Assembly: GCF_004360225.1 (NCBI RefSeq)
Contig: NZ_SNUA01000001.1
Span: 496,001-560,000, forward strand
DNA from: Alcanivorax sp. 24
Lineage (GTDB): Bacteria; Pseudomonadota; Gammaproteobacteria; Pseudomonadales; Alcanivoracaceae
Length of the DNA: 64,000 bases
Direction: 5' to 3'
Shown here: positions 47,433 through 60,706 of the stretch, in pieces
Layout of the letters: every line of letters starts with the position of its first letter
Position numbering within the stretch: the stretch's first letter is position 1
Translations under genes and position numbers: made by a program
Notes under the pieces: model-generated
Told to the model about the DNA's origin: nothing
Seen by the model: only the letters and a program-made list of their open reading frames with translations
Databases searched by the model: none

Positions 47433-47870
47433 TCGCCTCTCTTCTCAAGAAAGAAAAACCTTCCCTTCCTGTTTGTGGAAAATGTCGAGCTATTCTTTCC
47501 GATTTTAAGGTCGGATTTTTATTATTATTAATAAAATAAGTTATCGGCAGATTCTGATAAAACTTTAGTTGTTTTTTATTGGTATAAAAGGTTTATTCCT
47601 TAATGCCAATTTGATTTAAGAGATGGTTGTATATTGGTTTTTTATTTCTTTGTTTTTCTATTACAGTCATGAATGTGAACAAATGAAAACGGCAAGAATT
47701 CCGGAATAAGAAGGCGGAGTCGTGTCGGAGGAAGGGGCTTCGGTTACCCGGTACGGCTGGTAACGTACTGATTATTGCGGTGATTGGCCTGCCAGGCGCT
47801 GGCGAGGCCGGCGCTTATAAAAATGTGAAATCAGTAACGGGATAATAATCAACGGAGCGAGGGGAAAGAC
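47433..47870. other. AT-rich intergenic region
   Basis: 438 bases with a strongly AT-rich core (about 47500-47700), unlike the rest of the window. A weak hairpin, TCCGA/TCGGA followed by a T-rich tract near 47505-47530, may end the emr transcript. An inverted pair GTTACC (47743-47748) / GGTAAC (47759-47764) lies upstream of the next gene. No convincing ORF. Confidence 0.5.
47743..47764. promoter_or_regulatory. GTTACC-N10-GGTAAC inverted repeat
   Basis: Perfect 6-bp inverted half-sites about 110 bp before the fimbrial-like gene. The half-sites resemble those upstream of the candidate Cbr-controlled RNA at 55959-55999, but the spacing differs. Confidence 0.3.
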
Positions 47871-53647: not shown

Positions 53648-54137
53648 AATGGTTCTCCTCCAGGCTGGGCAGACGGCGCAGTGGCTGATCCGCCACTCCA
53701 GGCCAATAGTCGGACAGCGGGCGGCCGTCGGGCAAGCGCGCGTCCGGGGCGATGTCCAACAGGGGGCGCAGAACAAAGGCGCGTTTGTGCATTTCCGGGT
53801 GCGGGACGGTGAGGCGGGGCAGGTGGATGGTCTGGTCCCGCCACAGAAGGATGTCCAGATCCAGGGTGCGTTCGCCCCAGCGCCGGTGCCGCACCCGGCC
53901 GGCCGCCTTCTCCAGGTCCTGCAAGGCGCTGAGCAGGGACAGGGGGGGCAGACGGGTTTCCAACAAGGCCACGGCATTGATGAAATCGGGCTGATCCTGT
54001 GGCCCCACCGGCGCGGTATCGTACAGAGCGGAGTGCGCCAGAAGGCGGGTCATCGGTAATACCGCGATGGCTTCCAGAGCATGGCAGACGCGTTCGGCGG
54101 GGCCGTCGAGATTGCTGCCGAGACCGACGGCGATCAT
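53616..54137 (-). CDS. folK: 6-hydroxymethyl-7,8-dihydropterin pyrophosphokinase FolK
   Basis: A 173-residue HPPK that makes the pterin pyrophosphate used by FolP. GLGSNLDGPAERV opens the protein; PQDQPDFINAV and the catalytic RRWGERTLDLDILLW (two Mg2+-binding aspartates) are present, then VPHPEMHKRAFVLRPLLDIAPDA. The start overlaps the pcnB stop (ATGA), and the 3' end overlaps the deoxynucleoside kinase start. Confidence 0.96.
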   Translation of the reverse strand: MIAVGLGSNLDGPAERVCHALEAIAVLPMTRLLAHSALYDTAPVGPQDQPDFINAVALLETRLPPLSLLSALQDLEKAAGRVRHRRWGERTLDLDILLWRDQTIHLPRLTVPHPEMHKRAFVLRPLLDIAPDARLPDGRPLSDYWPGVADQPLRRLPSLEENHFVEPAYSTAS

Positions 54138-55516
54138 GCTTCGCCGCCGCCGTTCCCACCACGTCGACGTCTACGCCGCCGCCGACCGCCTTGGCCGCCG
54201 GCCTGGCCCAGATCCTGGACCATGGCGCGTTGCCGGGATTCATCGGCGGCTTGATAGCGGGTCCACCATTCGCCCAGGCCGGGTTTGATCTCACCGGCCT
54301 GCTCGCGCAGCAGCAGAAAGTCGTAAGCGGCGCGGAAACGGGGGTGCTCCATCAGCGTGTCCGCCCGCTTGCCATTACGTTTGTCCAGGCGCGGTTGCAG
54401 GTCCCACATCTCGCGCATCACCGAGGAGAAGCGGCGTGGCACCGAGGTGTGATGGCTCTGCTCATTGAGGGCCCAGGTGGCGGCTTTGTGCAGGGCCGGC
54501 GCCGGCGGAATGCCATCCTCGCGATAGCGCTTCAGCTGCGTGACCAGCACCGGCCACAGAAACACCGCATAAAGGAAGGCGGGGGTGACCGGTTTATCCT
54601 CGGACAGGCGCCGGTCGGTGTTGTCCATGGCGGCGAGAATCAGCCGTTCCCAGACTTCTCCGCCCTCGCTTTCCAGAGCCTCGTGGGTATTGGGAAACAG
54701 GAAGGCAAACAGGCCCAGCTTGCGCAGCTGTTCAAAGGAAGCCCGGGCGTGGCCGCTGAGAAACAGCTTGAGCACTTCGTCGAACAGGCGGGCCGGCGGG
54801 ACCTGCAGAAGCAAGGGCGCCATTTCCGGGATCGGTGCCCGGGTGGCGCGATCCAGCTGGAAGCCCAGTTTGGCGGCGAAGCGGGCGGCGCGCAGCATGC
54901 GTACCGGATCTTCCCGGTAACGCTGCTGGGCGTCTCCGATCAAACGGATAATGCCGCGTTCGATGTCCTGCCGGCTGTTGACGAAATCGTGCAGGGAGAA
55001 ATCGGCGATGTTGTAGTACAGGGCGTTGATGGTGAAGTCCCGGCGCAGGGCATCTTCCTCGATGCTGCCCCAGGTATTGTCGCGCAGGACCAGGCCGGTC
55101 TCCTCATGGGCCCGGTGCTGGTCGTCATCCAGATCATCGTCCCGCTGGAAGGCGCGGAAGGTGGATACCTCGATGATTTCGCCGCCGAAACGCACATGCA
55201 CGATCTGGAAGCGGCGGCCAATAATGCGGCTGCGTTTGAACAGCCGGTAGACCTGCTCCGGGGTGGCGTCAGTGACCACGTCGAAATCCTTTGGCTGACG
55301 CCCGCACAACAGATCCCGCAGGCAGCCACCGACCAAATAGGCTTCGAACCCGGCCTTATGCAATCCGTAGAGTACATTGAGCGCGGCCCGGGACACCTGT
55401 TTACGGGAAATAGGGTGGGCGTCGCGGGGGATCACCTTGGCCTTGGGAAGGCGGGGCGTACGTGGGGAACCAAACTGAATAAGGCGGGTCAGTTTCTCCA
55501 GAAGCTTTGACGCCAT
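54134..55516 (-). CDS. pcnB: poly(A) polymerase I
   Basis: A 460-residue nucleotidyltransferase that adds 3' poly(A) tails and promotes RNA decay. The head domain has EAYLVGGCLRDLLCGRQPKDFDVVTDATP, with the active-site GG and DxD, then GSIEEDALRRDFTINALYYN and EDPVRMLRAARFAAKLGF; the body and an arginine/glycine-rich C-terminal tail (RRRRRRRRGGNGGG-type) follow. The ATG at 55516 gives the family start; GTG at 55561 is less likely. It is followed by folK with a 4-bp overlap. Next to cbrAB as in Pseudomonas. Confidence 0.96.
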   Translation of the reverse strand: MASKLLEKLTRLIQFGSPRTPRLPKAKVIPRDAHPISRKQVSRAALNVLYGLHKAGFEAYLVGGCLRDLLCGRQPKDFDVVTDATPEQVYRLFKRSRIIGRRFQIVHVRFGGEIIEVSTFRAFQRDDDLDDDQHRAHEETGLVLRDNTWGSIEEDALRRDFTINALYYNIADFSLHDFVNSRQDIERGIIRLIGDAQQRYREDPVRMLRAARFAAKLGFQLDRATRAPIPEMAPLLLQVPPARLFDEVLKLFLSGHARASFEQLRKLGLFAFLFPNTHEALESEGGEVWERLILAAMDNTDRRLSEDKPVTPAFLYAVFLWPVLVTQLKRYREDGIPPAPALHKAATWALNEQSHHTSVPRRFSSVMREMWDLQPRLDKRNGKRADTLMEHPRFRAAYDFLLLREQAGEIKPGLGEWWTRYQAADESRQRAMVQDLGQAGGQGGRRRRRRRRGGNGGGEA

Positions 55517-55654: not shown

Positions 55655-55685
55655 AAAAAGGGATCACAACCTTGGTTGTGATCCC
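55655..55685 (-). terminator. intrinsic terminator, minus strand
   Basis: GGGATCACAACC (55660-55671) and GGTTGTGATCCC (55674-55685) form a perfect 12-bp stem; on the minus strand it is followed by TTTTTACTTTT. It terminates a transcript entering from the right, where no protein gene ends, hence the small-RNA call. Confidence 0.85.
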
Positions 55686-55894
55686 CTATGCGCTGATTCT
55701 GTTGTTATTATTGTTTGTGTTGTTTTCTGCCTTGCGCCGTACGCACATGGTGTTACGGCATTTCTCTCGTTTGGCTCATCACCTTTTTGTTCTTCTTTTC
55801 TTGTTCTTATTTTGAGCCTCGTCGCCTTGGTTGTTTTGTTTATCTGGCGTGGGATTCATAGTGCATGGATGGTTTTTCCTTTGCAATAGCATGT
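55655..55894 (-). ncRNA. candidate CrcZ-like Hfq/Crc-sequestering small RNA
   Basis: Position and strand (cbrB - RNA - pcnB) match crcZ of Pseudomonas, whose RNA sequesters Hfq/Crc with CA motifs. The minus-strand transcript would carry three A-rich clusters rich in AANAANAA: near 55702-55730 (AACAATAATAAC and AACAACACAAAC), near 55790-55815 (AATAAGAACAAG and GAAGAACAAAAAGG) and near 55829-55845 (AAACAAAACAACC). A strong intrinsic terminator closes it. The 5' end is a guess from a TATAAG box at 55901-55906; CbrB-type half-sites lie 65-105 bp further upstream. No sigma-54 -24/-12 element is seen. Sequence similarity to CrcZ outside the motifs is not claimed. Confidence 0.5.
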
Positions 55895-55958
55895 TAAATG
55901 CTTATAAATCAGTAACTTACGAAAATTCCGAAAAAGCGATTCAAAAGGTGGGGGTGTG

Positions 55959-55999
55959 GGGTAACGTTCTTGTTACCCGGCCTGTGTAGTAAGGTAACA
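55959..55999. promoter_or_regulatory. TGTTAC/GTAACA half-sites, candidate CbrB-binding region
   Basis: GGGTAAC-N6-GTTACCC (55959-55978) is a perfect inverted repeat, and TGTTAC (55971-55976) with GTAACA (55994-55999) forms a second one spaced 17 bp. TGTTAC/GTAACA-type half-sites are reported for CbrB in Pseudomonas; I cannot verify the published spacing here. They lie upstream of the candidate RNA. Confidence 0.5.
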
Positions 56000-56111
56000 C
56001 TTGATCGTTGAATGCGATCGAGAGAGTAACAAGAAGGTCATCCACAAGCTGTTCCTGGCAAAAAAACGCTGGGAATCATCTTCGACGCTGCTTCAGCGGG
56101 GCTATGACAAA

Positions 56112-56211
56112 GGCCACGAAACCGCTGTGGGAAGCTTGCTTGCAAGCGAATATGCCCCCTGGCCGTTGGCCATTCGCTTGCAAGCAAGCTTCCCACAGCG
56201 GCTTCGCGGCC
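56112..56211. repeat. REP-like inverted pair (REPIN-type), 40-bp arms
   Basis: The arms 56112-56151 and 56172-56211 are reverse complements at 38 of 40 positions, the inner 30 being perfect, with a 20-bp spacer. The CTGTGGGAAGCTTGCTTGC core resembles the GTGGGAGC...-type REP sequences of Pseudomonas. It lies 54 bp beyond the cbrB stop. Confidence 0.8.
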
Positions 56212-56264
56212 CGGGTTCTTCACAGCACTAAGCCGCTCTGTTGGAGTCTGGCCGGGCCCCGGGC

Positions 56265-57599
56265 TCAGCGCCGGCCGCCCTTGCGACGGGGAATACCCAG
56301 GCGCTGGCGGCGCTCCCACAGGCTTTTGCGGCTGATACCGAGCTTATTGGCCAGCTCGGTCTCGGTCATGCTGTCCTGGTTTTCCAGAACAAAACGGGTG
56401 AAGTAGTCTTCCAGTGACAGATCCTCGGAAGGGTCCAGGCTGGCGCGGCTGGCACGGGTGGTGCGTTGTGGCGCGCGATCCGGGTTCAGACCCAATTGGC
56501 CAGGGCCTATGGCTTCCTCCTCGGAGAGAATCACCGCCCGCTCGATGACATTCTCCAGTTCCCGCACATTGCCTGGCCAGCTGTAACCGCGCATCGCTTC
56601 CAGTGCTTCCTGAGTGAAAAACAGGTTTTGCCGCCGCAGTTTCTCGCTGCCGCGAGCGAGAAGCGCACTGGCAAGATCCTCGATATCCTGTTCGCGGGCT
56701 CGCAGGGGCGGCACTTCCAGCTCCATCACGTTAAGCCGGTAGTAGAGGTCGCGGCGGAATCCGCCTTCGGTGACCCGGGTGGGCAGATCGGTCTGGCTGC
56801 TGGCCAGAATGCGTACGTCCACTCGTCGTGTGGCCAGGGAGTCCTGCCGGTGGATCTCGCCCTGTTCCAGCAATGTCAGCAATCGGCTTTGCGCTTCCCC
56901 TGACAGTTCGCCCACTTCGTCCAGAAACAGGGTGCCGCCTTCCGCCTCTTCAATGCGGCCGGGCTGCTCATCGTTGCCGAACAGATCATCCAACTGCAGG
57001 GTTTTCGGCAGCGAGGCGCAGTGCACGGTTATCAGCGGGCCGCTCGCCCGATCACTGTGTTCATGGATGGAGCGGGCGGTCAGTTCCTTGCCGGTGCCGG
57101 CTTCCCCGAGAATCAGCACAGGAGTATCGGTGGGCGCCACCCGGGCAATGCGGTGCTTGAGGTCACGCATCGCCTGGCAATCGCCCACCATGGCGTTGAC
57201 CGGATAGCTGCGTTCCATGTCACGGCGCAGTGCCTGGTTGCCGCGATTAAGCCGGCCTTCCTTCAGCACTCGTTCCACGGCCAGCAGCATTTCCTCGTGG
57301 TCGAAGGGTTTGGGGATGTAATCCACCGCGCCCTGGCGCATGGCGTCCACCGCCGAGCGCAGACTGGCGTAGCTGGTCATGATCAGCACCGGGGTCGGGT
57401 TGGCCTGTTCGATCAGGGCGGTGCCCGGTTCTCCCGGCAGGCGCAGATCGCTGATGATCAGGTCGTACTGGTGCAGGCTTTTCTCCAGCGCCTGCTCCAC
57501 CGATTCCGCCTCCATCACGGAGTGATCATGCCGCTCCAGCAATTTGCGCAGCGCGCCGCGAATAACGGGCTCGTCTTCCACGATCAGTATGTGACTCAT
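56265..57599 (-). CDS. cbrB: CbrB-type response regulator, lacking the GAFTGA loop
   Basis: A 444-residue NtrC-like regulator. The receiver domain (1-120) has the acidic pocket VEDE, phosphoacceptor D51 (DLRLPGEPG) and K97; the AAA+ domain has Walker A GEAGTGKE (165-172), Walker B GGTLFLDEVG (221-230) and RRDLYYRLN; a Fis-type helix-turn-helix ends the protein (ELANKLGISRKSLWERRQRLG). Where sigma-54 activators have FGHxxGAFTGA, this protein reads FGNDEQPGRIEEA (from 207), so the loop that contacts sigma-54 is gone. Identity rests on the adjacent cbrA, cbrX and pcnB. Confidence 0.88.
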   Translation of the reverse strand: MSHILIVEDEPVIRGALRKLLERHDHSVMEAESVEQALEKSLHQYDLIISDLRLPGEPGTALIEQANPTPVLIMTSYASLRSAVDAMRQGAVDYIPKPFDHEEMLLAVERVLKEGRLNRGNQALRRDMERSYPVNAMVGDCQAMRDLKHRIARVAPTDTPVLILGEAGTGKELTARSIHEHSDRASGPLITVHCASLPKTLQLDDLFGNDEQPGRIEEAEGGTLFLDEVGELSGEAQSRLLTLLEQGEIHRQDSLATRRVDVRILASSQTDLPTRVTEGGFRRDLYYRLNVMELEVPPLRAREQDIEDLASALLARGSEKLRRQNLFFTQEALEAMRGYSWPGNVRELENVIERAVILSEEEAIGPGQLGLNPDRAPQRTTRASRASLDPSEDLSLEDYFTRFVLENQDSMTETELANKLGISRKSLWERRQRLGIPRRKGGRR

Positions 57600-57620: not shown

Positions 57621-57786
57621 AGAGCCTGTTTAAGGTCTATTCACCGCCGCGCCGGAGTTCCCTCTTCACCTGGTAGAAAGTGTCGCCAGGTCGTGATTCC
57701 GATTGTGCAGTGTAGTCATTCTACATAAACAAGCGTAATCGCGGGCTGGCGGCAACGCGGTGGCGTATAGACCTTGAACAGGCTCT
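57621..57786. repeat. AGAGCCTGTTTA inverted-repeat element between cbrA and cbrB
   Basis: The arms 57621-57640 (AGAGCCTGTTTAAGGTCTAT) and 57767-57786 are reverse complements at 19 of 20 positions, spanning 166 bp and overlapping the cbrA stop. A related repeat with the same termini lies at 60963-61039. Confidence 0.7.
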
Positions 57787-60706
57787 AATAAGCGGGCAGG
57801 TCGATGATAAACCGGGTGCCATGGTCGCCTTCCACCGGGCTCTCCACGCGCACCGTCCCCTGATGGTCTTCGATGATACTGTAAACCAACGCCAGTCCCA
57901 GACCCGTACCGCGGCCCGGCGACTTGCTGGTGACGAAGGGTTCAAACAGGGCATCGCGCAGTTCAGCCGGTATGCCATGGCCGCGATCCTCGACTTCGAT
58001 ACGCACATTCTCACCCTCCGGGCGGCTGCGGACCGTGATCGGGGCGTCGTCCTCGCTGGCGTCCGAGGCGTTGCTGAGCAAGTTGACGAACACCTGCAGC
58101 AAACGTTGCGGGTCACCCATCACTTCGTGGGTCGGGTCGCAGAGATTGCGGAAGTGTTGCTGGCGGCGATCCGGATCCAGTTGCAACAGGGCGATGGCTT
58201 CGGCGGCGGTGTCATGGACCCGCACCGGGCCATGGATGACGTCGCGCATGCCGCCGGAGTGGCTGAAGGTCACCAGGGATTCAACGATGCGGGTGATACG
58301 GCGGGTCTGCTCCATGATCTGCTGTCCACTGAGGCGCTGCTCCTCATCAAGACTATCGCCTTCCAGATTCTGTGCCAGGCAGGCGATCGCGGTGACCGGA
58401 TTGCCGATTTCATGGGCGACGCCCGCGGCCAGACGGCCGATGGAGGCCAGCCGCTCGTTGTGTGCCAGGTGCGCTTCCATATGGCGTAGATCAGTGATGT
58501 CCTCAAGCACCAGTACCAGGCCGCCGGCCTGCTCGGACGGGCCAGCGCCGCGGATCAGTGATTTGTGCAAACTCAACCAGCGGGCCTGGCCGTTGACCTC
58601 GATGCTGCGTTTGGGATCGTGGGCGTCCTCGCCACGGCTGAATTCGGTGAGCAGTTCCCCCCAGGGGGAGGGCAGATGGTCCAGGCGTGAGCCTATGGTG
58701 TCTTCCGCGTCGATGCCGGTCAGGGCTTCCACCGCGCGGTTCCAACCGATGATCTCGCCGTCGGCGCCCAGAGAAATAACCCCCATCGGCAACTCCAGCA
58801 GGGTTTGCCGGTGAAAACGGCGCAGGCTGTCCAGTTCCGCCGCCAGACCAGAGAGGCGATCCCGGTACTTCTCCAACCGCGTTTCGATAAAGCGGATGTC
58901 CTCGCTGGATTCCTCCCCTTCGCGCGGCCGATAGGGCACATTCTCATCCATCAACTGATGGGCAACGGAGGGGCCGAGCAAACCGGACAGGTTGGTTTCC
59001 AATTGATCGCGCAGCCGTCGCAGGGCATAGGGCCGGGTCTCGGTATACTTCAGGCGCAGATCCCGCAGTGCCATTTCCACTTCCCGGGCGGCGGTCACCG
59101 GCCCCAGTGGACCGCTCAGTGACGCGATAAAATCGTCCACGGACTGGGCGCTCAATTCCCAGCGGTACGGGCGGCGCAGGCTGTCCACCGCGCAGGCCTC
59201 GGCGGCGGAGCGCTCCGCCCGGGACATCGGGGTGACGATCGACACCACCGCATAGATCAGGCCATTAAGACTCACTGACGCCAGAGCCACCCGATGCCAC
59301 TGGGTGGCGCCTTCCGGGTACCGCCAGCCGAGCCACTGCAGGATTTCCTGCGCGTGCCAGTGCGGGGTGATCAAGGGAAATAGCAGGGCCACCGCCCAGA
59401 TCACGAACCCGGCCAGCATACCGGCGAACAGGCCGCTGCGATTACCCGAGGGCCAGAACAGGGCTCCGATCAGCCCGGGCACGAATTGCAGCGTCGCGAC
59501 GAACGACAGCACCCCCAGTTCCACCAGTGAATGGTTGGGGCCAGTGAGCCGGTAGAACAGAAAGGCCAGCGCAAGAATGGCCGCGATCAGTACCCGGCGG
59601 GTCCACAGCAGATTGCGGTACAGATCCTGGGCGGAGCTGAGAGGGCTGGCCGGCAACACCAGGTGATTCAAACACATGCCGGACAGTGCCAGGGTGGCGA
59701 CGATCAGCATGCCACTGGCGCCGGCGAGCCCGGCCAGATAGGCCAGCACCGCGCCGTGGCCGGTCTCCCGGCCGACACCGAGGGCGAAATAATCGGGAAT
59801 GGTCGGGGCGTCGATGGCGAGCGCGGACCACAGGATCAGCGGTACGCACAGTGCCATGATCAGAAACAGCAGCGGCAGCCCCCAACTGGCGGTGACCAGG
59901 GCGCGTGGATTGAGGTTCTCGGTGAAGGCCATGTAGAACATGTGCGGCATCACCACCGCGGAGACAAAGAACGCCATGATCAGGCTGTGCCAGGTTCCGT
60001 CCTGCAACGGCTGGTAAAGACGGGTGAGCATCTCCGGATTGGTGTCCAGCCACTGGTTCAAGCCGCCGAGACCACCAAAGACGCCGAACAGCCCGAGCAG
60101 GGCCACCGCCACGAACGCCACCAGCTTGATCAGCGATTCGGTGGCGATGGCCACCACCAGGCCCTCATGCCGTTCCCGGGCAGTGGCATGGCGGGCGCCA
60201 AACAAAATGGCGAACAGGGTGATCAGCAGACAGAACCAGAACGCCAGCCAGGCGGGATCGGGATCTCCGGTGAGAATCTGGATGGACTCCGCCACCGCCT
60301 TTAACTGCAGTGACAGCAACGGCAGCATGCCGACCACCATCATCACCGTGGTGAGTGCCCCGGCCAGGCGGCTGCGATAGCGGAAAGCGAACAAATCCGC
60401 CAGGGAGCCCAATTGATACGTCGTGGTCAGGCGGAGGATCGGCGCCAGCAGGATCGGCGCCAGCAAAAACACCCCGGAGATACCGAGAAAATAGGCGAGA
60501 AAGTTGTAGCCATAACGATAGGCGTAACCCACCGAGCCATAGATCGCCCAGGCGCTGGCGTAGACTCCGAGTGACAGTACATAGACTACCGGATGACGCA
60601 CCCAGCGTGAGGGGATCCAGCCCCGCTCGGTGATCCAGGCCACCAGGAACAGAAACAGCAGGTAGCCGCAGGCGATCAGAATCAGTTCGCTGACACTATA
60701 CGTCAT
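57785..60706 (-). CDS. cbrA: CbrA-type sensor histidine kinase with transporter domain
   Basis: A 973-residue protein combining an N-terminal SLC5/sodium:solute symporter-like domain with about 13 transmembrane helices (1-500), a linker, a PAS domain (about 625-735, LLELPMGVISLGADGEIIGWNRAVEALTG), the dimerization helix with H765 (GVAHEIGNPVTAI) and a HATPase domain (NLLSNASDASEDD, DRGHGI, GRGTGLGLAL). This layout is that of CbrA, which controls carbon/nitrogen use and, through CbrB and CrcZ, catabolite repression. It overlaps the upstream small gene cbrX by 11 bp and precedes cbrB. Confidence 0.93.
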   Translation of the reverse strand: MTYSVSELILIACGYLLFLFLVAWITERGWIPSRWVRHPVVYVLSLGVYASAWAIYGSVGYAYRYGYNFLAYFLGISGVFLLAPILLAPILRLTTTYQLGSLADLFAFRYRSRLAGALTTVMMVVGMLPLLSLQLKAVAESIQILTGDPDPAWLAFWFCLLITLFAILFGARHATARERHEGLVVAIATESLIKLVAFVAVALLGLFGVFGGLGGLNQWLDTNPEMLTRLYQPLQDGTWHSLIMAFFVSAVVMPHMFYMAFTENLNPRALVTASWGLPLLFLIMALCVPLILWSALAIDAPTIPDYFALGVGRETGHGAVLAYLAGLAGASGMLIVATLALSGMCLNHLVLPASPLSSAQDLYRNLLWTRRVLIAAILALAFLFYRLTGPNHSLVELGVLSFVATLQFVPGLIGALFWPSGNRSGLFAGMLAGFVIWAVALLFPLITPHWHAQEILQWLGWRYPEGATQWHRVALASVSLNGLIYAVVSIVTPMSRAERSAAEACAVDSLRRPYRWELSAQSVDDFIASLSGPLGPVTAAREVEMALRDLRLKYTETRPYALRRLRDQLETNLSGLLGPSVAHQLMDENVPYRPREGEESSEDIRFIETRLEKYRDRLSGLAAELDSLRRFHRQTLLELPMGVISLGADGEIIGWNRAVEALTGIDAEDTIGSRLDHLPSPWGELLTEFSRGEDAHDPKRSIEVNGQARWLSLHKSLIRGAGPSEQAGGLVLVLEDITDLRHMEAHLAHNERLASIGRLAAGVAHEIGNPVTAIACLAQNLEGDSLDEEQRLSGQQIMEQTRRITRIVESLVTFSHSGGMRDVIHGPVRVHDTAAEAIALLQLDPDRRQQHFRNLCDPTHEVMGDPQRLLQVFVNLLSNASDASEDDAPITVRSRPEGENVRIEVEDRGHGIPAELRDALFEPFVTSKSPGRGTGLGLALVYSIIEDHQGTVRVESPVEGDHGTRFIIDLPAY

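Follow-up and report, generated by a model that had tools for sequence, protein, structure and literature searches.

Does the spacer between cbrB and pcnB in Alcanivorax sp. 24, a marine bacterium that feeds on oil, encode a counterpart of CrcZ, the small RNA that lies between these genes, on their strand, in Pseudomonas? And if so, how might it work next to a CbrB that has lost its GAFTGA loop, in a genome where we found no Crc orthologue? We analyzed a window of 64,000 nucleotides (the whole stretch of DNA under study, to which all coordinates refer). On its minus strand, the list of open reading frames includes a sensor kinase of 973 amino acids (57785..60706), which we take to be cbrA, going by its position and its presumed product. 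Downstream is cbrB (56265..57599), which encodes an NtrC-type response regulator of 444 amino acids with the GAFTGA loop deleted (LFGNDEQPGRIEEAEGG). Next on this strand is the gene for poly(A) polymerase, presumably pcnB (54134..55516, with the start chosen at MASKLLEKL). According to the open reading frames and the sequence, the spacer between cbrB and pcnB is about 750 nt.

Reading from cbrB towards pcnB, one meets first a long inverted repeat and then TGTTAC/GTAACA half-sites; these are followed by a stretch rich in AT, by one rich in A, and finally by a terminator of 13 pairs. The half-sites, which the initial annotation had noticed, are four putative CbrB-type sites on the minus strand (55960..56031): TGTTAC at 56031-56026, TGTTACC at 55999-55993, GTAACA at 55976-55971, and GTTACC at 55965-55960. 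Further down the same strand are an IHF-like site (55907..55919; TAAGTTACTGATT, one mismatch to YAANNNNTTGATW, which we take to be the IHF consensus), a -35-like TTGCAA (55881..55886) that lies 33 nt past this site, and, exactly 17 nt past the -35, a -10-like CACTAT (55858..55863). Setting the 5' end 7 nt past the -10 gives a predicted CrcZ-like RNA of 197 nt (55655..55851, minus strand). One more GTAACA (55756-55751), located within the predicted RNA, probably has no regulatory role. The inverted repeat (56118..56214, not assigned to a strand) is a REP-like element in the spacer between cbrB and the RNA, outside the RNA itself. Its arms are GAAGCTTGCTTGCAAGCGAAT and the complement; it is present in the spacers of two relatives (L001 and L002) and not in those of two others (L003 and L004), and similar units, with at most 4 changes, lie near other genes of the same genome (L163, L164, and L189).

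The predicted RNA has nine exact copies of AANAANAA, versus a mean of 1.66 in dinucleotide shuffles (0 of 2,000 shuffles reached nine), and it is the densest 197-nt stretch for this motif on either strand of the window (in steps of 10). The exact copies form two clusters, at about 55811-55784 and 55715-55702. The initial annotation had described three clusters of motifs; the third, at about 55842-55830, is A-rich but contains no exact AANAANAA, so that description was slightly loose. In the predicted fold, three hairpins, of which two have large A-rich loops, precede an unpaired A-rich block on the 3' side and the terminator; the AANAANAA motifs sit in the loops and single strands. The fold has a z score of -4.3, and 1 of 200 shuffles folded equally well. 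Hairpin 1 (55823..55849) is closed by CGCC...GGCG around an A-rich loop; hairpin 2 (55773..55818) is closed by GGCTC...GAGCC and carries the first AANAANAA cluster in its A-rich loop; hairpin 3 (55736..55759) varies strongly in sequence among relatives. The single-stranded block (55689..55727) includes the family's most conserved 3' box (AACAATAATAACAACAGAATCAGCGCA). All of these are on the minus strand, as is the intrinsic terminator (55655..55687), which consists of a stem of 13 pairs at 55687-55658 and a T-run. A scan of the sequence found two terminator-like sites, versus a mean of 3.2 in shuffles, so the count by itself is no proof; the second site has a stem of 6 pairs, versus 13 in the RNA's terminator, and the latter is conserved. 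As the initial annotation had stated, no protein gene goes with this terminator: no minus-strand open reading frame of at least 80 amino acids in the list covers the predicted RNA, and the longest ATG frame inside it has 20 amino acids.

To see how this arrangement is distributed, we turned to relatives. CbrB was matched in 94 of them, and we used 89: 45 of 46 from the family Alcanivoracaceae and 44 of 48 others. We left out one genome with a weak match that is 64% complete (G026) and four with distant matches only (G063, G069, G081, and G086). Spacers were readable at 87 loci, 45 in the family and 42 elsewhere (L072 runs off the contig end, and at L088 the genes overlap). Where pcnB was not found, the spacer was taken as up to 1,200 nt of downstream sequence, whatever its content. 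pcnB was found downstream of cbrB in 77 of the 89 loci; 43 of the 45 family loci have it on cbrB's strand, and the remaining two run off their contigs. An RNA of the same plan could be excised from 44 of the 45 family loci; one of these 44 (L015) stops at a contig end. The family genomes are related to one another, so these 45 loci are not 45 independent events.

The RNA's structure is conserved as well. In 25 aligned family RNAs (chosen from the 44), the three helices that we tested were paired in 94% of cells, versus 33-52% for controls that were slid by 1-3 columns, and 9 of 22 pairs had changed on both sides. Hairpin 2 and the terminator carry the covariation signal: the terminator has both-side changes in relatives at 8 of 12 counted pairs. 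Hairpin 1 was paired in only 80% of cells. The most conserved part of the family RNA is a 3' box that adjoins the terminator (GAATCAGCGCA).

Is this RNA related to CrcZ? Rfam's CrcZ model (RF01675, gathering threshold 95 bits), which the initial annotation had proposed as a check, did not match the RNA or any other part of the window or of the genome. Because control genomes were equally silent in that genome search, we repeated it over the order. The model matched 59 of 293 genomes, Pseudomonadaceae among them, with 14 over the cutoff; across these 293 genomes, and with filters that lose some weak matches, there were no matches within Alcanivoracaceae. Eleven genomes have both CbrB and CrcZ matches: the CrcZ match is directly downstream of cbrB in eight, and in the remaining three it is on contigs other than cbrB's. 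A permissive scan of our spacer with Rfam models yielded seven matches, none over the gathering score and none to CrcZ; we rejected the best of them, to a microRNA family (E = 0.0002), as caused by the inverted repeat.

We also built a covariance model from the family RNAs (R1). It detects the window RNA, and in the window's own genome it has one strong match and one weak match (E = 0.24). Outside the family, R1 matched L053 (E = 4e-6), L046 (5e-6), L048 (4e-4), and L060 and L050 (about 4e-3 to 8e-3), though these E-values are approximate, and the matches may owe something to A-rich composition. Of the 54 matches listed, we located 22, taken from outside both Alcanivoracaceae and Pseudomonadaceae, and all 22 are on the cbrB strand and downstream of cbrB. 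At L060 (genome G064), Rfam's CrcZ model and R1 match the same place. In the Pseudomonadaceae loci that we searched, R1 had no significant match (best E = 0.065). The RNA of the sister family (L046), which lies behind a sigma54 promoter, has AGCCAATGCAGTGC, an identity of 14 nt, in common with family members. Elsewhere in our window, the second densest stretch of AANAANAA (7 per 197 nt) is at 47465-47770 on the minus strand, an AT-rich spacer downstream of an acetyl-CoA synthetase-like open reading frame with GTTACC-N10-GGTAAC just upstream; R1 does not match this stretch.

Given its place, its anatomy, and its intermediate relatives, we take the RNA to be a diverged counterpart of CrcZ in Alcanivoracaceae; common descent with CrcZ is suggested by the place and the intermediates. 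The initial annotation's proposal that the spacer encodes an RNA of the CrcZ type is supported by conservation across the family and by links to Pseudomonas CrcZ through intermediate families. Like CrcZ, CrcY, and CrcX of Pseudomonas and Azotobacter (RF01675), the RNA has CbrB-type half-sites, A-rich motifs in loops or single strands, and its own terminator. Unlike them, it is about 200 nt rather than about 400 nt and falls below detection by Rfam; and they have sigma54 promoters, whereas here the promoter is sigma70-like, the genome has no Crc, and CbrB lacks GAFTGA. The RNA probably works like CrcZ, yet we did not file it under RF01675, because two defining features were looked for and not found. 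RsmY/RsmZ and CsrB/CsrC are also decoy RNAs, which titrate a global RNA-binding protein by repeated motifs. The display of repeated motifs is similar, but their motif is GGA (for CsrA), while here it is A-rich (for Hfq).

According to a 2022 review, the cbrAB-crcZ arrangement is unique to the Pseudomonadaceae and has been described only in Pseudomonas and Azotobacter (PMC8871633). In 31 of 40 other families (1-2 genomes each), we found downstream of cbrB a sigma54 promoter with four or more AANAANAA in the next 250 nt. In open-license full text (subscription journals were outside the scope), no paper was found on CrcZ with Alcanivorax or on CrcZ with Marinobacter, and in the same kind of text Alcanivorax and CbrB came up together only in a seawater metatranscriptome, and CbrB and GAFTGA in three papers.

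The regulator, too, has changed in the family. If an intact loop is defined as G[AS]F[TS]GA, then none of the 45 family CbrB proteins has one, versus 43 of 44 others (the exception is L147). The loop is deleted in our genus and in a large genus, g8 (30 loci); the other 15 family proteins have altered loops, such as DALPGA, GAFAGA, or GAFEGA, and two of the family's CbrB proteins (L092 and L096) are a single residue away from GAFTGA. The window's CbrB keeps Walker A, Walker B, the arginine finger, sensor II, and the helix-turn-helix DNA-binding motif. The same split is seen among genomes with names, of which we took the best 80 of 98 relatives: the loop is intact in 0 of 21 Alcanivorax or Alloalcanivorax and in 57 of 59 others. 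The closest named CbrB among the matches listed is from A. xenomutans JC109 (99%), which puts our genome within or close to Alloalcanivorax. We considered loss of rpoN as the cause and rejected it: our genome has rpoN, as do 43 of the 46 in the family. Also, our genome has seven strong sigma54-activator domains (six weaker matches are outside this count), and five besides CbrB keep a GAFTGA-like loop. The seventh, an enhancer-binding-protein-like AAA+ domain (L195, C12:88011-88514), has neither GAFTGA nor the Walker A lysine.

There is a precedent for such a regulator. As described in PMC10274813, NtrC without GAFTGA acts at sigma70 promoters. The NtrC of Rhodobacter capsulatus and Caulobacter described there resembles our CbrB in having lost the sigma54-contacting loop and kept the AAA+ core, and its sites likewise lie at a distance upstream of a sigma70-type promoter. 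In our case, the protein is a CbrB, from another bacterial class, and its apparent target is the gene for a small RNA.

The promoter differs in the same genomes. A sigma54 promoter score of at least 9 of 12 was reached in 34 of 42 spacers from outside the family, usually shortly ahead of the A-rich region, and the score was 10-11 of 12 in all 10 Pseudomonadaceae loci that we fetched; the other 8 of the 42 are likewise without a good sigma54 site. None of the 45 family loci has a sigma54 promoter adjoining the RNA: one family spacer (L002) reaches a score of 9, within the inverted repeat and 270 nt ahead of the -35. All 45 family spacers contain the pattern TTGC(A/C)(A/T)-N17-CANNAT, whose 17-mers come in 35 different versions, and 0 of 42 others do. 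We wrote this pattern after seeing the alignment, so the count of 45 is partly by construction; the count of 0 elsewhere is unaffected. In the named genomes (again the best 80 of 98 relatives), the sigma70-like pattern is present at 20 of 20 Alcanivorax or Alloalcanivorax loci of at least 400 nt versus 0 of 58 others, a sigma54 promoter at 1 of 20 versus 51 of 58, and a dense A-rich region at 20 of 20 versus 44 of 58.

The initial annotation had concluded that the genome uses Crc/Hfq catabolite control, and it had named the lack of a crc/hfq pair as something that would refute its reading. This conclusion is not supported, as only half of that pair was found. All but one of the 46 family genomes have hfq, our own included, but we found no Crc orthologue in our genome or in the 46 family genomes that we searched. 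As the query, we used a P. aeruginosa Crc sequence, which had matches of 86-89% in five Pseudomonadaceae. Strong matches (E < 1e-28) were found in 47 of 52 genomes outside Alcanivoracaceae (all except G047, G063, G069, G078, and G086) and in 0 of 20 inside. With Crc from the sister family as the query, no best hit in the family exceeded 93 bits: 44 of 46 genomes had such a hit, and the other two had none. We rejected the idea that a diverged Crc is among these 44 hits, given their low scores and a tree in which all seven that we placed grouped with exonuclease III and separately from Crc. Also, in each of four genomes examined from other families, crc adjoins pyrE; at this location, all seven family genomes examined lack it. 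The place is occupied by an open reading frame that we take to be RNase PH-like. That Alcanivorax has no Crc homologue is not a new finding, because it is already stated in PMC9788540. That paper reports dRNA-seq of Alcanivorax, and its main text does not mention the cbr genes, a point against our main reading (given below). In open-license full text, we did not find a report that a CrcZ-like RNA persists in Crc-less Alcanivorax. The sequences support the existence and conservation of the RNA gene and its kinship with CrcZ; they also support that crc and GAFTGA were lost and that the promoter differs.

How could the RNA work without Crc? As presented in PMC4063720, Hfq is the repressor in P. 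aeruginosa, CrcZ is its high-affinity decoy, and Crc is auxiliary. In a gel shift reported in PMC5815094, a 2-fold excess of Hfq sufficed with Crc and an 8-fold excess was needed without it. Together with what PMC10274813 and PMC3162934 describe for NtrC and for the GAFTGA loop, these precedents make an Hfq-only decoy, made from a sigma70-type promoter that CbrB activates, the simplest reading of the locus, and we are fairly confident in it. Phosphorylated CbrB would bind the TGTTAC/GTAACA sites as an enhancer, some 150 bp ahead of the point where the RNA is predicted to start, and a bend at the IHF-like site between enhancer and promoter would bring it to RNA polymerase. Because the GAFTGA loop has been lost and TTGCAA-N17-CACTAT replaces the sigma54 promoter, CbrB would activate the housekeeping (sigma70-type) polymerase. 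The A-rich triplet runs in the hairpin loops and in the single-stranded 3' block would be offered to the distal face of Hfq. Like CrcZ in Pseudomonas, the RNA would then free Hfq-repressed mRNAs, although here the complexes of Hfq and RNA would lack the strengthening effect of Crc. We infer transcription, the use of sigma70, activation by CbrB, binding by Hfq, and a role in catabolite control from the features of the locus. More broadly, it seems likely that the Alcanivoracaceae rewired the whole circuit: Crc was lost, CbrB went from a sigma54 activator to a sigma70 activator while the enhancer and the IHF-like site stayed in place, and the decoy was kept as an Hfq-only one. The unit of cbrB and a CrcZ-like RNA would itself be old and widespread in the Pseudomonadales (as defined by GTDB), reaching beyond the Pseudomonadaceae.

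The alternative that survives best, though we consider it unlikely, is that the sigma70-like promoter is constitutive or is under another factor's control, with CbrB acting elsewhere or as a repressor, in which case the RNA would no longer report carbon status. A changed regulator at a changed promoter would fit this idea, and NtrC without GAFTGA is able to repress as well (PMC10274813). But the TGTTAC-type sites have been kept at a steady distance from the promoter: from TGTTACC to the -35 is 112-114 nt in 40 of 45 family loci and 101-102 nt in the other 5, a difference of about one helical turn. (Ten of the 45 loci have two TGTTACC, and we picked the one that fits the alignment by hand for this distance.) The exact double site, TGTTACC-N10-17-GTAACA, occurs at a single place in our genome; in another member of the family (G034), it occurs at two places, and a reversed control matched there too. 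Furthermore, the core promoter is weak, as would be expected of one that depends on an activator. The weakness of the -10 and the -35, and a general promoter scan that found none, also count against our main reading.

The IHF-like site appears to have been retained as well, in most of the family. With at most one mismatch, it is found ahead of the promoter in 36 of 45 family loci and in 20 of 34 other loci, versus 6-8% in shuffles. In the family, TTGCAA follows the IHF-like site at 32-33 nt; elsewhere, the distance to TGGCAC is 32 nt at 12 of the 20 loci whose site is good. For this reason we considered a possible in-place mutation from TGGCAC to TTGCAA, but in the sister family the spacing from the IHF-like site to TGGCAC is 42. 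Given the steady distance of TGTTACC, the IHF-like site, and the sigma70-like pattern, the enhancer and the bend appear to have been kept and the core promoter exchanged.

Slightly less probable still is a role in trans through base pairing, or as a sponge for a protein other than Hfq. The most conserved part of the RNA is the 3' box and not only the A-rich runs, and with Crc lost the original role may have changed over time. Against this, each of the 44 family RNAs has 7 to 13 copies of AANAANAA, which are unpaired in the folded window RNA, and Hfq binds A-rich sequences and, in P. aeruginosa, CrcZ, as described in PMC4063720 and PMC5815094. One observation counts against the Hfq decoy itself: at position 25, on Hfq's distal face, the four family members that we read and the sister family (L212-L215 and L217) have Phe, where a member of the Pseudomonadaceae (L216) has Tyr.

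We think it improbable that sigma54 is still used, with TTGCA as the -12 element, a degenerate -24, and CbrB contacting sigma54 through another loop. rpoN is present, TTGCA does resemble a -12 box, and in some genera the loop has the same length and is merely altered (GAFEGA or GAFAGA). However, there is no conserved GG 10 nt upstream of the GC of TTGCA, the element conserved alongside TTGCA is CANNAT, at a spacing of exactly 17 nt, and changes in GAFTGA, including single ones, mostly abolish activity (as described in PMC3162934). Finally, a classical CrcZ, which would titrate the Hfq/Crc pair and be made from a CbrB-driven sigma54 promoter, would suit the place, the A-rich motifs, the CbrB-type sites, and the presence of hfq, but is hardly credible given that our search of 46 family genomes turned up no Crc orthologue, that none stands beside pyrE in the seven examined, that PMC9788540 also states its absence, and that all 45 family loci lack both an intact GAFTGA and a sigma54 promoter adjoining the RNA.

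A family with the RNA, the regulator, and Hfq but without Crc amounts to a natural deletion experiment on what Crc contributes; a section heading in PMC4063720 terms the function of Crc in Pseudomonas "elusive." The family also offers a conversion from sigma54 to sigma70 that can be traced, as the loop and the promoter differ together and some genera have loops that are altered and not deleted.

Outside the family, three relatives of CbrB lack an intact GAFTGA: L147, L272, and L303, with AAYENR, GAFQNA, and GAVVGS in the loop region. These are possible independent losses; downstream of L272 and L303 there is no dense A-rich region, and the genome of L147 has no spacer for an RNA. One genome (G073; L049 and L218) has a single sigma54 promoter and then 56 AANAANAA in about 1 kb, downstream of cbrB; pcnB was not found at L049. 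At six other loci outside the family (L048, L052, L058, L074, L076, and L077), there are two sigma54 promoters downstream of cbrB with A-rich motifs after each, which are apparent tandem duplicates of the CrcZ-like gene.
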